Origin: an uncultured Bacteroidales bacterium
GTDB lineage: Bacteria; Bacteroidota; Bacteroidia; Bacteroidales; Porphyromonadaceae
DNA length: 16,733 nt
Direction of reading: 5' to 3'
NCBI GenBank assembly: GCA_947290775.1
Contig: CAMYPM010000025.1
Span: 1 to 16,733 of the forward strand
How positions within the stretch are numbered: position 1 is the first letter of the stretch; each line of letters opens with the position of its first letter. Of the stretch, positions 2,049 to 16,733 are shown one piece after another. Both the position numbers and the translations under genes were made by a program. The notes under the pieces were generated by a model that was not told the DNA's origin, did no database searches, and saw only the letters and a program-made list of their open reading frames with translations.

Positions 2049-2534
2049 CTAGGTTGTTGCCTTCATTCGTTGGCTGATTAGCCTTCGGTTGGCATTGACA
2101 AGGCTAACAATTTGGTCGTGGTATGAGCTGTTTTGGTTGCACACCCCACGACTTTGTACCACTTTGAGAGTGTCTAGAGATACCTCTATGGTCTCTATTC
2201 TGCCCTCAATGGTTGCGGACAAAATAAGCGAGTTCTCTTTGAGGTAGTACTCATTTGAAAATAGGCAGTGGTGCAATTCAGCTCCTTCCTCTATATACTC
2301 ATGCACGCTCTCTAACACGCGCACTTGGATTGTGCCGTCCGTAAAACGGATGCCGAAGAACTTGGATTTAAGTTCTTGGAAACGCTTTTCATTTTCCATC
2401 GCCTTTTGCTGTTTCTTGGCAAGTCCCTCCTTTTCTCTTTGTGTGAGCAGTTCCGTATGTCTGCGGTCGTGTTCGGCTCTGAGGTCGGTAGGACAAAGAT
2501 AGCAGAAAGTGTATCTTTGTACTTGATGAGAATA
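2049..2534 (-). pseudogene. PcfJ-like protein, C-terminal remnant
   Basis: The minus-strand frame ends in TAG at 2049-2051 and is open back to a TGA at 2535-2537. The longest ATG-started piece begins at 2399 (116 residues), but homology-like sequence continues upstream of that ATG (LCPTDLRAEHDRRH, then a Lys/Glu-rich helix). Recognisable PcfJ features are FFGIRFTDGTIQVRVLESV, the HHC motif (residues 43-45 of the 116-residue piece), a following YYL, SLILSATIEG, IETIEVSL and VVQSRG, in the order seen in Bacteroidota PcfJ-like proteins. Family members are several hundred residues long, so at least the N-terminal half is missing. The family is linked to conjugative and mobilizable elements, but its biochemical role is unknown. 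The fragment abuts dgt (start 2586), so the deletion or insertion junction is probably between about 2500 and 2585. I treat it as a non-functional remnant, although the 116-residue piece could still be made. Confidence 0.7.
2512..2519 (+). promoter_or_regulatory. Possible -7 element for dgt
   Basis: TATCTTTG matches TAnnTTTG fully and lies 66 bases before the dgt ATG. No TTTG is present at the usual -33 distance. It is also the right arm of an inverted repeat (2494-2501 and 2512-2519), so it may be coincidental. Confidence 0.35.
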
Positions 2535-12562: not shown

Positions 12563-14611
12563 ATGTTACAGAACAAACCATTCGACACACAACTATTGGA
12601 GCGTGCCGCTGATAATATCCGCGCCCTCTCCGTAGCTATGGTGGAACGCGCCAAGAGCGGTCACCCGGGTGGGGCTATGGGTGGAGCCGATTTCATCAAT
12701 CTGCTCTTTACCGAATATCTGCGCTACGACCCCGAGCAGCCCTGCCGCTATGCGCGTGACCGATTCTTCCTCGATCCGGGGCATATGTCCCCCATGCTCT
12801 ATTCATCGCTTGCACTACAGGGGCGCTTTACCCTCAACGAATTGAAGCAATTCCGCCAGTGGGGAAGCCCTACGCCCGGTCATCCCGAGCGAGATGTAGC
12901 GCGTGGCATCGAAAACACTAGCGGCCCCCTTGGTCAAGGGCACACTTTTGCGGTAGGTGCCGCCATTGCCGCTAAGATAATGGCGCAACGCTTCGGGGCG
13001 GAACGTATGCCGCAGCACATTTATGCCTACATATCCGATGGCGGTATTCAAGAAGAAATCGCTCAAGGTGCCGGACGAATAGCCGGGCACCTCGGATTGG
13101 ACAATCTGACCATGTTCTATGATGCCAACGATGTGCAGCTCTCCACGCTCGTCAGCGATGTGACCAGCGAAGATGTTGCTGCCAAATATCGTGCTTGGGG
13201 ATGGGAAGTGATCACCGTAAACGGCAACTGTGTAACCGAACTGCGCAAAGCATTGGACACGGCGCTCGCCACCAAAGGCAAGCCGACGTTGATCATCGGC
13301 AAAACCACAATGGCATACAAAGCGCTGAACGAAGAGGGAAGCGAGATTACCAACCGCATTGCTACGCACGGGCAACCGATGAGCAAAGCGGGTGCCTCCA
13401 TAGCTCAAACTTTGGGTGGAATGAATATGCCTTCCGATGAGCCGTTCCAAATATTGCCTGAAGTAAGCCAATTGTATCAAGCTCGTGCCGAAGAGCTGAA
13501 AGCCTACTGGGCAGACTACGATCGTAGCTTTGCCGCTTGGGAAAAGAGCAATCAACACGAAGCCGATACGCTACGGGACTGGTTCGAAGGCAAACTCCCA
13601 CAAATAGATATGAGCGCCATCGAGCAGAAGCCCAATAGTGCTACACGCTCCGCAGGTGCCACCGTGCTTTCCGCTTTAGTTAAGCAAATCCCCAATATGG
13701 TGGTAGCAAGTGCGGACCTATCCAACTCCGATAAAACGGACGCATTCCTCAAGGGCACGCATCCGCTCGCAAAGGGCGACTTTAGCGGTCGCTTCCTCAA
13801 TGCCGGCGTTTCCGAGCTCACCATGGCAGCAGTATGCCTCGGAATGATGCTCCACGGCGGGATTCACGCCGCTTGCGGCACCTTCTTCGTCTTCTCCGAT
13901 TATCAAAAACCGGTGATCCGCTTGGCTGCTTTGATGCAAATCCCGCTCATTTTCATCTGGACGCACGACGCCTTCCGGGTGGGTGAGGACGGACCTACGC
14001 ACCAGCCGGTAGAGCACGAAGCGCAAATCCGACTGATGGAAAAGCTGCACAACCACTCCGGTGCTAGAAGTATGTTGGTACTCCGCCCCGCCGATGTGCA
14101 CGAAACTACCGTGGCTTGGCAGATGGCTTTGGAGAATCGCGATACGCCTACGGGGCTCATTTTGTCCCGTCAGAACATCAACGATCTCCCCTCCGGTGAC
14201 GTCACCCCCTACCACCGTGCATTAGGCGCGCTCAAGGGCGGCTATGTAGTGAGCAGCGATAAGGATGCACAAATCGCTCTGGTGGCATCCGGTAGTGAGG
14301 TATCCACTTTGGAAGAAGCCGCTACCTTGCTCCGCAAAGAAGGCTTCCGCATACGCGTGGTTTCCGTTCCTTCCGAAGGACGGTTTGCCGATCAGGACGA
14401 CAAATATCGCGAAACGGTGCTCCCCGCAGCTATGCCGCGCTTTGGGCTTACTGCCGGATTGCCCGTAAACCTGCTCGGATTAGTGGGGTGCGAACAGCGC
14501 ATTGCCGGCTTGGAAAGCTTCGGCTACTCGGCACCCTATACGGTGTTGGACGAAAAGCTCGGATTCACTGCGCAGGCAGTTGCCGATAAAATCCGCGCGC
14601 TTCTCGCTTAG
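12563..14611 (+). CDS. tkt: Transketolase
   Basis: The 682-residue thiamine-diphosphate enzyme moves two-carbon units between sugar phosphates in the non-oxidative pentose phosphate pathway. Key sites: SGHPGGAMGG (32-41, H34), DPGHMSPMLYSS with H74, SGPLGQGHTFAVGAAIA (120-136), the cofactor motif YISDGGIQEE (156-165) to DAND (187-190), GVSELTMAAVCLGM with the catalytic glutamate of the pyrimidine domain, and THDAFRVGEDGPTHQPVEH. The cofactor motif has SDG rather than the GDG of E. coli-type enzymes, as I recall for other Bacteroidales transketolases. The start ATG has a clear GGAGG at 12550-12554, 8 bases upstream, unusual for this phylum. It is the last gene of the operon and is followed by a strong terminator. 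Confidence 0.97.
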   Translation: MLQNKPFDTQLLERAADNIRALSVAMVERAKSGHPGGAMGGADFINLLFTEYLRYDPEQPCRYARDRFFLDPGHMSPMLYSSLALQGRFTLNELKQFRQWGSPTPGHPERDVARGIENTSGPLGQGHTFAVGAAIAAKIMAQRFGAERMPQHIYAYISDGGIQEEIAQGAGRIAGHLGLDNLTMFYDANDVQLSTLVSDVTSEDVAAKYRAWGWEVITVNGNCVTELRKALDTALATKGKPTLIIGKTTMAYKALNEEGSEITNRIATHGQPMSKAGASIAQTLGGMNMPSDEPFQILPEVSQLYQARAEELKAYWADYDRSFAAWEKSNQHEADTLRDWFEGKLPQIDMSAIEQKPNSATRSAGATVLSALVKQIPNMVVASADLSNSDKTDAFLKGTHPLAKGDFSGRFLNAGVSELTMAAVCLGMMLHGGIHAACGTFFVFSDYQKPVIRLAALMQIPLIFIWTHDAFRVGEDGPTHQPVEHEAQIRLMEKLHNHSGARSMLVLRPADVHETTVAWQMALENRDTPTGLILSRQNINDLPSGDVTPYHRALGALKGGYVVSSDKDAQIALVASGSEVSTLEEAATLLRKEGFRIRVVSVPSEGRFADQDDKYRETVLPAAMPRFGLTAGLPVNLLGLVGCEQRIAGLESFGYSAPYTVLDEKLGFTAQAVADKIRALLA

Positions 14612-14650: not shown

Positions 14651-14682
14651 AGGCATCTCCCCGCACGGGAGGTGCCTTTTTT
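14651..14682 (+). terminator. Intrinsic terminator of the operon
   Basis: An 11-bp stem (14651-14661 with 14667-14677, one G-U pair) closes a 5-base loop and ends in six T (14677-14682). It lies 39 bases after the tkt stop. A second perfect 6-bp hairpin, GCTTCC and GGAAGC (14622-14638), sits between the stop codon and the terminator. Confidence 0.92.
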
Positions 14683-14860
14683 CATAGCCTATATCCATTC
14701 CTTCTCCCGATCGCAACTCGCACAACCTTACATAAGCAAGGGCAGAGTGGAGCATGAGTGCTAACGAATGGGAGAAGGTAAGTTATTTGGGTAGCACAAG
14801 CGTGCAATCGGAAGAAAGATCGTGAGGTAACAAATATTTCGTCGCATATATTTAGAAAAT

Positions 14861-15014
14861 ACCCTATAGCCTTTTTCGAGAAACCCTATAGCCTCTTTAC
14901 AAATACCCTATAGGGTTTTTGTAAATACCCTATAGCCTTTTCCCGAATTGTACGGCATAATAAATCTGATTGTACGGCAAGATAATTATTAAAATACGAC
15001 TTGTTGAAAATAAA
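14861..15014. repeat. Array of seven 22-bp-phased units (iteron-like)
   Basis: ACCCTATAG occurs at 14861, 14883, 14905 and 14927, exactly 22 bases apart, each followed by a T-rich tract and usually preceded by AAT. The phase then continues with another core: TGTACGGCA at 14949 and 14971, and a degenerate TACGACT at 14995, which is again 22 bases after the TACGGCA at 14973. Twenty-two bases is about two helical turns, so bound proteins would lie on one face of the DNA. Similar spacing is typical of plasmid replication iterons. It is not coding (22 is not a multiple of three). Which protein reads it is unknown. Confidence 0.85.
14896..14925. repeat. 30-bp near-perfect palindrome inside the 22-bp array
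   Basis: TTTACAAATACCCTA is followed directly by its inverted copy TAGGGTTTTTGTAAA, with 14 of 15 positions matching. The centre is the perfect 12-bp palindrome ACCCTATAGGGT. Only the third array unit has GGG after CCCTATA; the other three have GCC, so the full dyad is unique to this unit. Confidence 0.85.
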
Positions 15015-15100
15015 GAAGTTACCTTGTTGGTATAACTGAACTAGTAACGATTTGGAAACGAACGAGCTACTTGGTTTCGCTGTTTTCTGCCTAACAAAGA

Positions 15101-15153
15101 ACGCTTGTTATTCTGTTAGCAAACAGAATATTTTGCTGGCGAATAACAAGCAT
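15101..15153. repeat. Long nested hairpin / inverted repeat downstream of the relaxase remnant
   Basis: GCTTGTTATTC (15103-15113) pairs perfectly with GAATAACAAGC (15141-15151). After a small internal loop, AGCAAA (15118-15123) pairs with TTTGCT (15132-15137). An alternative perfect hairpin, ATTCTGTT and AACAGAAT with a 4-base loop (15110-15129), competes with it. ATTTTT follows on the plus strand, so it could act as a terminator. It could equally be a recombination or replication structure of the mobile element. Confidence 0.8.
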
Positions 15154-15206
15154 TTTTAATGATATATTCTTTTTTCTGCACTTTTCTAATGCGATTTTTG
15201 ATAGGG

Positions 15207-16066
15207 TTATAATCTTCGTCCTCGCTTCTTCTTTCTGCTTGCTTGGTTTCTGAGTTTGCGCTGCCACGCTGTTTCTGCATAGTCATCGCCTTGCGTAGTT
15301 GGTGTAATCAAATCGCCTAACCCTTCCACTACGTAATCGATTGCACTAATGGCTACATCTGCCATTGTACCGATAGCCTGTACAATCTGCGGAGTTTCTT
15401 CTGAAGCTCGTGGTATGTACGAACGGCTTTTAGGTACAAGCTGGTAGCCTTTATCAGGCTGTTCTTTCTTTTCAGTTGCCTCTTGTATCGTTTGGCGTGG
15501 TTTCTTTGGTTCTTCCTTGTTGGTTGCTTCAAAGTTCCTCTGCAAGGAACGGTAGCCGAACTCCCTGCCGATTTCGGAAGCCTTGAAGGTTTGTCTTGCG
15601 TATGAGAACTTCAAGGCATAAACCTTGTCCTACTTGTTCTTCAAGCGCTCTATGGAAATGCCGTTTTTGTTCAATTCATAAAAGAACATGGAAAACCCGG
15701 TGATGCCTGTACCTTTGTACTTATCAAGCAAGGTGTAGCAAATCTTCTGCACCTACTGCTTTTTCTGTCTCTCGTGGGATTAGCTTTTGTCTTTTGGAGT
15801 TTCCTTTCCGCCTTGACTTCCTTAGCAATGGTCAAACCTTTCTCCCTACTGATTTCCTCTGCCCCCTTGCTGCCTTGTTGCTCACAAAGGTGGTGTCATA
15901 GACTTCTCCGTACGGACTGATACGGTTGGCAATGATATGAATGTGCCTGTTGTCGGTGTCCTTGTGCGTTACTGCCACCCATTGGTGGTTGTCAAGTCCC
16001 ATTCGCTTGGCAAACAAATGGGCTATCCGCACCAGTTCGGACACAGACAGCTTTTTCTCATCCTGC
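15207..16066 (-). pseudogene. Relaxase (mobilization nuclease), degenerate
   Basis: Joining three minus-strand segments rebuilds one relaxase. Segment 1 (about 16066-15865) reads SVSELVRIAHLFAKRMG and then VTHKDTDNRHIHIIANRI, with the paired histidines of relaxase motif III encoded at 15937-15945. A frameshift at the C5 run 15862-15866 moves into segment 2, AEEISREKGLTIAKEVKAER. A second shift near 15765-15785 enters segment 3: ICYTLLDKYKGTGITGFSMF, KFSYARQTFKASEIGREFGY and a basic tail RKKKRGRRL ending in TAA at 15207. Segment 3 holds two in-frame TAG codons (15753-15755 and 15630-15632), both explicable as CAG to TAG changes. The N-terminal motif I with the catalytic tyrosine is absent. An intact relaxase would nick the element's transfer origin; this copy cannot. 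The last piece (from 15614) could be translated as a 135-residue fragment. Confidence 0.8.
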
Positions 16067-16274
16067 GGTGCGTGTTGATTTCATAGCGACCTACTTTTGA
16101 GAAGTGAGCATCGTTCTTACTATGATATTCGGTTCTTCCCAACACTGTGTTGTATCTAAACTGGTAGTAAGAGGAGAGATAGGTTTCTATCTCCGAGTTC
16201 TTGGAAAACTTCCTTCTTGTATGAAGTTCGCTGTTTTCCCCCTCAGATTAGCTTTTATCCGCATTCTTTTTCAT
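16066..16274 (-). pseudogene. VirE-like N-terminal fragment fused to the relaxase remnant
   Basis: From ATG 16274 the minus strand reads MKKNADKS, then a TAA at 16248-16250, then continues in the same frame with KFSKNSEIETYLSSYYQF, RYNTVLGRTEY and HFSKVGRYEINTHRR. This resembles the N-terminal region of the Bacteroidota VirE (virulence-associated E) proteins found on mobilizable elements. The frame ends at TAG 16023-16025, but similarity stops near 16066, where relaxase-like sequence (DEKKLSV) takes over in another frame. Full-length family members are several hundred residues long, so almost all of the gene is missing. Family assignment is from memory of the conserved block and is moderate. 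Confidence 0.5.
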
Positions 16275-16328
16275 TATATGCTTGGTTTGGTTTCCAAGAG
16301 TGAAGTTATGAAGAGAATAGGAAAGTTC

Positions 16329-16349
16329 CAAGCATTCGGAGAGTGCTTG
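16329..16349. repeat. Short hairpin
   Basis: CAAGCATTC, loop GGA, GAGTGCTTG: nine pairs including one T-G, with a 3-base loop. It lies about 55 bases upstream of the VirE-like start on the minus strand and has no T-run on either side. Function unknown. Confidence 0.45.
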
Positions 16350-16609
16350 CATAATGTTGCACAAATTGGCAATGAATTTCTCACGAACTTTTGACAGGAA
16401 ACAGTCGGAAAGGACGGATTTAAGCCCCAAACAAGAGGACAAGTGCGTAAGGGATGCAAGAAAGGCAGGTGCTTCTTTGCTCCATCCTGCATAGTATTGC
16501 ATCGGCTAAAAGGATATGATAAAATGGAGTAAAAAGGCAAAGAAAGAGAGTGACAATCCTTTTGTTCTTTCATTGTTTTCCCCTGTATTTCCCTACTGTT
16601 CCCTTGTGC

Positions 16610-16640
16610 TTTGAAGTATGACAAACACTCCCTACTTTTG
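16610..16640 (+). promoter_or_regulatory. Consensus Bacteroidota promoter
   Basis: TTTG at 16610-16613, a 19-base spacer, and TACTTTTG at 16633-16640 match both boxes of the Bacteroidota consensus exactly. Transcription would start near 16646-16648, about 60 bases before the ATG at 16707. Confidence 0.75.
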
Positions 16641-16706
16641 CAAGCAGAAACGTGTGATGAAGCGCAAAACAAGAAAAGGAATTACAAACAAAACAACAAT
16701 AGAATT

Positions 16707-16733
16707 ATGGGATATTTTATCATTACGGATTCA
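16707..16733 (+). CDS. Start of an unidentified gene, cut by the window edge
   Basis: Nine codons, MGYFIITDS, are visible after a consensus promoter and an A-rich leader (AAACAACAATAGAATT), as is common before starts in this phylum. Too short to assign. It diverges from the VirE/relaxase remnants, so it could belong to the same mobile element or mark the return to other sequence. Confidence 0.5.

Follow-up and report, generated by a model that had tools for sequence, protein, structure and literature searches.

A six-unit 22-bp phased array beside tkt in a Porphyromonadaceae chromosome, a possible cis-acting element cut by a mobilizable element

The window analysed here, a stretch of 16,733 nucleotides from an uncultured Bacteroidales bacterium of the Porphyromonadaceae, contains a row of six units at 22-bp steps in intergenic DNA downstream of the transketolase gene tkt. 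With a rough probability of 0.5, this array is a chromosomal cis-acting element, one of a class of phased arrays acting as protein sites upstream of promoters, and has been cut by a mobilizable element. Its membership in a class that is dispersed over Porphyromonadaceae chromosomes is probable. Constraint on the spacing, number and position of the sites, combined with free linkers, as seen in the genomes studied, is characteristic of sites that a protein reads and not of a drifting repeat. If this holds, many promoters in some of these bacteria carry an unrecognized upstream element with its own reader, and the contrasting site codes of related species provide a direct route to that reader by genome comparison. 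Short repeats of 22-23 nt are already known in Porphyromonas, from P. gingivalis, as minisatellites or MITEs; a literature search that left most subscription journals aside found nothing on fixed-number phased arrays upstream of promoters.

Units 1 to 4 of the window array (14857..14878, AAATACCCTATAGCCTTTTTCG; 14879..14900, AGAAACCCTATAGCCTCTTTAC; 14901..14922, AAATACCCTATAGGGTTTTTGT; 14923..14944, AAATACCCTATAGCCTTTTCCC) contain CCCTATAG, starting at 14862, 14884, 14906 and 14928, i.e. at exact 22-bp steps. Their CTATAG core is palindromic, most extensively in unit 3 (CCCTATAGGG). Units 5 (14945..14966) and 6 (14967..14978) carry a second core, TTGTACGGC, which is not clearly palindromic, with TGTACGGC at 14949 and 14971; the mobile element cuts in immediately after the TTGTACGGC of unit 6. 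No strand is assigned to any of the units. Three CCCTATAG at 22-bp steps give two matches in the window and none in 200 dinucleotide shuffles, and the TGTACGGCA pair gives one match against none in 200 shuffles; the four CCCTATAG and two TGTACGGC units are genuine and exceed chance. When 14857-14978 is compared with itself at lags of 10-60, agreement is highest at lag 22 (64% of letters), followed by its multiple 44, and the best unrelated lag, 42, reaches 39%. Adjacent units agree at 17, 15, 17, 5 and 16 of 22 letters, the drop to chance level between units 4 and 5 being due to the change of core. The array has an exact period within 22-24 bp over at least three units, one of the features of the class as described here, and it is the only array that a scan for exact 7-mer triples detects in the 16.7-kb window. 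With a core of ~10 bp and a linker of ~12 bp it differs from CRISPR arrays, in which repeats of ~21-48 bp alternate with unique spacers of similar length, and no cas match occurs among the window ORFs scanned.

Both cores fill roughly equal columns of the 22-bp frame, a coincidence of phase that simple counting puts at about 1 in 22. A preliminary description of this DNA had seen no break in phase between the two motif types and had counted seven units. The shared columns bear out the first point in part, but the statement is weaker than it appeared, because with unrelated cores the register follows from the choice of a first letter for each one. As for the second, six units stand beyond shuffles and the seventh fails: its TACGACT core has 5 of 9 letters in common with TGTACGGCA, a score equalled off-register at 15083, and it lies inside the mobile element.

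The position of that element is defined by homology. The array follows tkt (12563..14611, + strand; Pfam Transketolase_N/pyr/C), a chromosomal gene whose closest relatives among the best 80 of 589 loci are those of Porphyromonas, at 72-74% amino acid identity, and a GC-rich inverted repeat with a T run (14652..14682, + strand) that looks by eye like a terminator. On the right, 14979..16733 (- strand) is the end of a mobilizable element with decayed mobilization genes that runs off the window and is 80-82% identical to Prevotella copies (L001, L002). Searches with this region give 82% and 80% identity to the two Prevotella records, starting at window positions 14977-14978; in an alignment to three Prevotella copies, of which one strain supplies two, the common sequence starts with AAGAT at 14979 and the left side differs. 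The element is presumably integrative, and no integrase was seen. It includes a relaxase fragment (15832..16044, - strand; PF03432) and an ORF (15207..15614, - strand) with no Pfam match of its own that lies beneath the Prevotella relaxase match and would represent the C-terminal part. The second TTGTACGGC ends flush at the element and therefore belongs to the host side, and the TACGACT unit lies within the element, where homology begins at 14979, so that six real units are found on the chromosomal side. The array is intergenic, and the sequence once to its right has been replaced by the mobile element.

The array might instead belong to this element, as iterons or as a transfer-control region, which is what the preliminary description had proposed from the adjacent mobilization remnants. 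The window array does adjoin mob genes, and mob remnants of the same family occur in three other Porphyromonas genomes, with two identical 22-bp units and a partial third at the junction in G008 (L267), one array-like unit, GTATATAC, in G007 (L268), and doubtful array-like DNA in G003 (L270). Element and array may therefore be linked in some way, and the mob element may prefer array DNA of this kind. However, element homology stops at 14979, the three Prevotella copies show no array at the corresponding boundary, and another CTTCCGCA pair lies 70 kb away on the same contig of G008, which favours the host as owner of the arrays. Neither rep nor int has a match among the window ORFs scanned, the element itself extending past the window, and like arrays are dispersed between ordinary genes of relatives. 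A replication or transfer function is not supported, and ownership of the array by the element is unlikely. In a plasmid collection, the mob region alone has matches, in two Prevotella records, besides a weak 33-base match in Kosakonia; a phage collection yields no match, and a search of 393 order-level genomes with the element end, scoring two candidates per genome, yields only 11 weak matches. Replication iterons are direct repeats of a protein site, located within a replicon beside the rep gene, and those of R6K are 22 bp long. The window array resembles them in its direct 22-bp repeats on one helical face but is chromosomal, beside tkt, and genomes like G006 and G018 carry such arrays by the dozen. 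Of the earlier proposal of two kinds of site, or two proteins, on one face of the helix, the idea of protein sites spaced by about two helical turns fits, but the role of replication iterons does not.

Arrays with this period are a feature of several related genomes. Period spectra were obtained from samples of 200-400 kb from eight genomes, as exact 7-mer triples at periods of 12-60; G018, G006, G014 and G015 were sampled because they had matched a search for CCCTATAG-N14-CCCTATAG. Array clusters at 22, 23 and 24 bp number 22/0/0 in G018 (400 kb), 4/20/3 in G006, 2/1/2 in G014, 1/6/0 in G015, 5/5/0 in G009 and 3/0/0 in G003, against means of 0.00-0.12 at other periods (0.12 in G018, 0.05 in G006) when double periods are set aside; eight clusters in G006 fall at the double period of 46. 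Samples of the close relatives G002 (280 kb) and G001 (200 kb) contain no 7-mer triple array, although G002 carries CTTCCGCA arrays elsewhere. Cores vary from genome to genome and many appear palindromic by eye: TGAGGGATATCCCTCA in G018, GAGTTACCATAACTC in G006, a GATCCTA type in G015, CCCATGAATGGGT in G014, and GTATATAC with its relatives in several. The motif of G006 forms 436 phased pairs in that genome and none in 37 others. Single arrays of G012 and G014 keep to exact 22-bp steps while their core changes, for instance between GTATATAC, GCATATGC, GTGCGCAC and CTTCCGCA, so the two cores of the window are not unique.

The window's own cores recur less widely. With one mismatch, CCCTATAG-N14-CCCTATAG is found in 4 of 38 family genomes (seven matches in G006, three in G014, two in G015, one in G033), and its reversed control has one match in G013 and 44+47 in G018, the latter fitting that genome's own array motif, GATATCCC. 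At periods of 12-42, 28 of the 50 matches to CCTATAG pairs, palindromic pairs being counted on both strands, are spaced by exactly 22 bp, with no other period above 2; the 22-bp pairs occur in 4 of 38 genomes (14 in G006, 12 in G033, one each in G014 and G007). Overall, these pairs do not outnumber the reversed control (50 vs 53, without G018, as totals over all of these periods), and only their spacing stands out, not their number. Pairs of TGTACGGC are listed in the family solely with two mismatches, mostly within TCTACGGC/TGTAGGGC arrays of G009. Pairs of two other cores were counted as well: CTTCCGCA pairs are present in 8 of 38 genomes, including P. endodontalis G002 (62 matches vs 0 in the control), and GTATATAC pairs in 15 of 38 (92 forward matches vs 4 reversed). 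At the order level, GTATATAC pairs occur in 20 of 295 genomes but do not exceed the control (64 forward vs 73 reversed, 46 of the latter in G097), so that any spread beyond the family rests on a few genomes, with G079 (seven) and G306 (four) as suggestive single cases. Core matches also occur in 20 viral contigs, which fall into few groups, one of them, a group of four, having three units (raw counts). The preliminary description had proposed to follow the cores, either beside mobility genes or over many chromosomal sites. Arrays of 22-24 bp do lie at many intergenic chromosomal sites in relatives, and mob remnants abut 22-bp units as well, clearly so in G008, with one unit in G007 and doubtfully in G003.

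The arrays of G006 and G018 are strongly constrained. Five units are present in 27 of 34 G006 arrays and four in 23 of 29 G018 arrays (chains of fewer than three units being left out in G018), and the commonest pattern in G006, seen in 15 of 34 arrays, has its last unit inverted. Neighbouring units are exactly 23 bp apart in 131 of 137 cases in G006, and 22 bp or a multiple apart in 55 of 56 in G018. The corresponding figure for G012, 22 bp in 36 of 38, comes from loci that were picked, like five in G014, by 22-bp GTATATAC pairs, so that spacing and array rates in these two genomes are biased. In arrays with exactly five (G006, 27) or four (G018, 23) units, conservation reaches 2 bits in the cores, is near 0 in mid-linker, drops within a few letters beyond the array edges and averages 0.09-0.18 bits in the flanks; the 3' flank of G018 is weakly C-rich, at most at 1 bit. 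Outer units in G018 have ATAT centres and inner units tend towards ACGT. Linkers of one array are identical at 3.2-4.4 of 8 positions in G006 and 2.0-2.9 of 6 in G018, compared with 3.5-3.9 and 2.2-2.8 between arrays (figures that carry no significance test); as they are about as alike within arrays as between them, tandem duplication alone does not account for these two families. The preliminary description had likewise argued that two unrelated cores in one register do not result from simple duplication. That argument gains from these linkers and from the mixed-core arrays of G012 and G014, but for the second window core the rest of the family yielded matches at two mismatches only.

The alternative that deserves most weight is a BrickBuilt-like minisatellite carried in a MITE, that is, a non-autonomous transposable repeat whose bricks of 22-23 nt expand and contract and have no function as sites. 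BrickBuilt of P. gingivalis is the nearest described system found: passages of its description give a unit of 23 nt (AGAYCATARTATCCTCTCRTRTG), arrays located in intergenic MITEs with a leader, a tail and 12-bp terminal repeats, and a copy number that varies between strains (PMC4596501, which also cites earlier tandem repeats of 41, 23 and 22 nt from strain W83; BrickBuilt is mentioned in PMC5771137 as well). As far as these passages go, it is like the window array in being intergenic, in its spacerless tandem units and in its genus, and unlike it in unit length, the window having 22-bp units, two cores and variable linkers. Several observations suit such an origin. The BrickBuilt unit is present in the G009 sample; a GCATATGC/GTATATAC array of G009 recurs in multiple copies with common flanks and inverted ends and looks, by eye, like a transposable element; and array copies in G014 have a leader in common, again by eye. 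Across species, array positions coincide for 6 of 52 ortholog pairs, with 5.1 expected (P = 0.40), and this lack of positional conservation counts for a MITE. Against it, the window contains neither the BrickBuilt unit, searched in a permuted form, nor IS-like ends of the G009 repeat, each at up to 3 mismatches, and the one BrickBuilt terminal repeat end that was searched, CCGAAAGGTCTC, has three window matches at 2 mismatches (1.1 expected), none of them within 3 kb of the array. In G006 and G018, no strong common leader or tail is seen, unit number is near-fixed, and linkers next to each other show no clear excess of similarity over the rest (no significance test applies to identity). For these two families, a freely expanding minisatellite was rejected, given the near-fixed unit number, the rigid spacing and the mostly unshared flanks. 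A MITE origin of the window array is possible but doubtful; moreover, arrays may ride on MITEs in some species while also being protein sites.

Half-sites and folding bear on whether DNA or RNA is read. As RNA, the window array folds better than shuffles on both strands (z -3.6 and -3.3), and serial hairpins could act as an attenuator, a terminator or a small RNA. However, any palindromic array folds well, and in the relatives the half-site variants are anti-compensatory, with odds ratios of 0.38 in G006 (P 0.033) and 0.064 in G018 (P 0.0013), in a test that omitted units of other half-site types (3 of 165 and 48 of 108, respectively). Linkers within arrays show no excess of complementarity (z -2.5 to 1.3 in G006 and G018), arrays are rarer between convergent genes, and Rfam and tRNA searches have no match. 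Hairpins were rejected as the selected feature on the grounds of these half-sites and unpaired linkers, and an RNA-level element is quite improbable. Taken together, linker identity and complementarity speak against both recent tandem duplication and RNA pairing, and half-sites that combine against palindromy suit a protein reading degenerate half-sites.

Palindromic units can also be spread as REP or BIME sequences by a Y1 (RAYT) transposase. REP units are longer, are more often located behind genes, and accompany Y1 transposases. The arrays are similar in their clustered palindromic units, present in both orientations, some of them inverted, in many intergenic copies, and one Y1 transposase occurs in G018. 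The transposase (PF01797) is present in 7 of 38 genomes but was not found in the array-bearing G006, G009, G012, G014 and G015, which makes this explanation very unlikely.

The location of the arrays is consistent with sites upstream of promoters. Among 114 arrays, that of the window included, 94 are intergenic, 12 lie in ORFs and 8 at edges. The intergenic arrays occupy divergent gaps more often than the background predicts (30 of 94 arrays vs 109 of 658 background gaps, Fisher P 0.0009) and convergent gaps less often (9 of 94 vs 133 of 658, Fisher P 0.011), with mechanically called ORFs and a background that contains the array gaps themselves. The next co-directional ORF starts at a median distance of 296 bp in G006 (n=18, 9-870) and 224 bp in G018 (n=16, 33-720). 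Between array and ORF, TAnnTTTG, the motif of the Bacteroidota -7 box, occurs 19 times in G006 and 13 times in G018, against 3.9 and 0.6 in letter shuffles, a baseline that differs from array-free promoter gaps; ORFs shorter than 450 bp and distances outside 100-600 bp were left out of this count. Sigma-54 promoters show no clear excess downstream of arrays, and array orientation in G006 shows no bias relative to the gene strand (7 to 6 and 3 to 2). Where the gap in front of an ORF measures 150 bp or more, an array precedes the ORF in 46 of 94 cases in G006, 35 of 87 in G018, 16 of 44 in G015, 11 of 87 in G009 and 3 of 94 in G003; the share is 10 of 47 in G014 and 8 of 9 in G012, where the choice of loci biases it. 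The genes behind arrays (30 of 42 proteins scanned) include dnaK, two uvrA-like genes, dnaX, enolase, PNPase, gapA and trmD, with no common function evident among them, and an Lnb-like gene, below the family cut-off, stands behind arrays in both G018 and G006.

A mechanism can be outlined for the window array as a promoter-upstream element, with its place in the class, protein binding, cooperativity and any effect on transcription all inferred. Six sites at 22-bp, or approximately two-turn, steps, with CTATAG-centred and TTGTACGGC cores, would originally have lain between tkt and a gene that formerly followed it. The class as a whole would consist of arrays dispersed in Porphyromonadaceae chromosomes, commonly upstream of promoters, with often palindromic cores that vary between species, an exact spacing of 22-24 bp and a site number that hardly varies within the families examined. 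In the likeliest mechanism, site after site along the same helical face would be occupied by a DNA-binding protein, probably a dimer, and an ordered complex would form on the array, upstream of the promoter. Units specific to a position, such as the inner and outer cores of G018 and the often inverted last unit of G006, may mark the ends of this complex or recruit a second partner. The mobilizable element would have inserted later at the right edge of the array, parting it from its gene. Operator arrays of cooperative regulators such as BldC, which is reported to act on direct repeats (PMC5859096), offer a partial parallel: evenly spaced sites would in both cases be read cooperatively by one protein, the reader of the window array being a putative one. 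They differ in extent, since in one sampled genome array sites stand before roughly every second ORF whose gap is no shorter than 150 bp.

More tentatively, the arrays could amount to a genome-wide architectural code of the Porphyromonadaceae, in which 4-6 sites at intervals of 22-24 bp seat a complex of fixed size, ~200-300 bp before the start codon, at as many as half of the ORFs whose gap reaches 150 bp. From one species to another the site sequence would be replaced entirely, with spacing and number retained, as though the protein and its sites co-evolved rapidly, and the two codes of the window would perhaps represent a stage of such a replacement. This wider proposal is held at well below even odds.

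Several further observations concern repeats and neighbouring DNA. Elsewhere in the window, a 69-bp tandem repeat (68-373) lies within a gene of the BspA-type leucine-rich-repeat kind, and a PcfJ-like protein (PF14284) is encoded at 2049-2399 (- strand) in a chromosomal setting. Among the best 80 of 589 Bacteroidales tkt loci, five (L034, L053, L064, L098, L099) have 22-bp arrays within 1 kb downstream of tkt; they account for 5 of the 21 arrays found in the 80 loci, and some may lie in coding DNA. Four viral contigs (L004, L007, L015, L020) have a 22-bp array in common, made up of three units with CCCTATAG cores, in surroundings unlike those of the window array. In G097, the 46 control matches, to CATATATG spaced by 22 bp, might stem from a separate array family of that genome. 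G009 contains a second dispersed 22-bp family, with TCTACGGC/TGTAGGGC cores, at about ten places (e.g. C1:130861-131002), several of which have both orientations.
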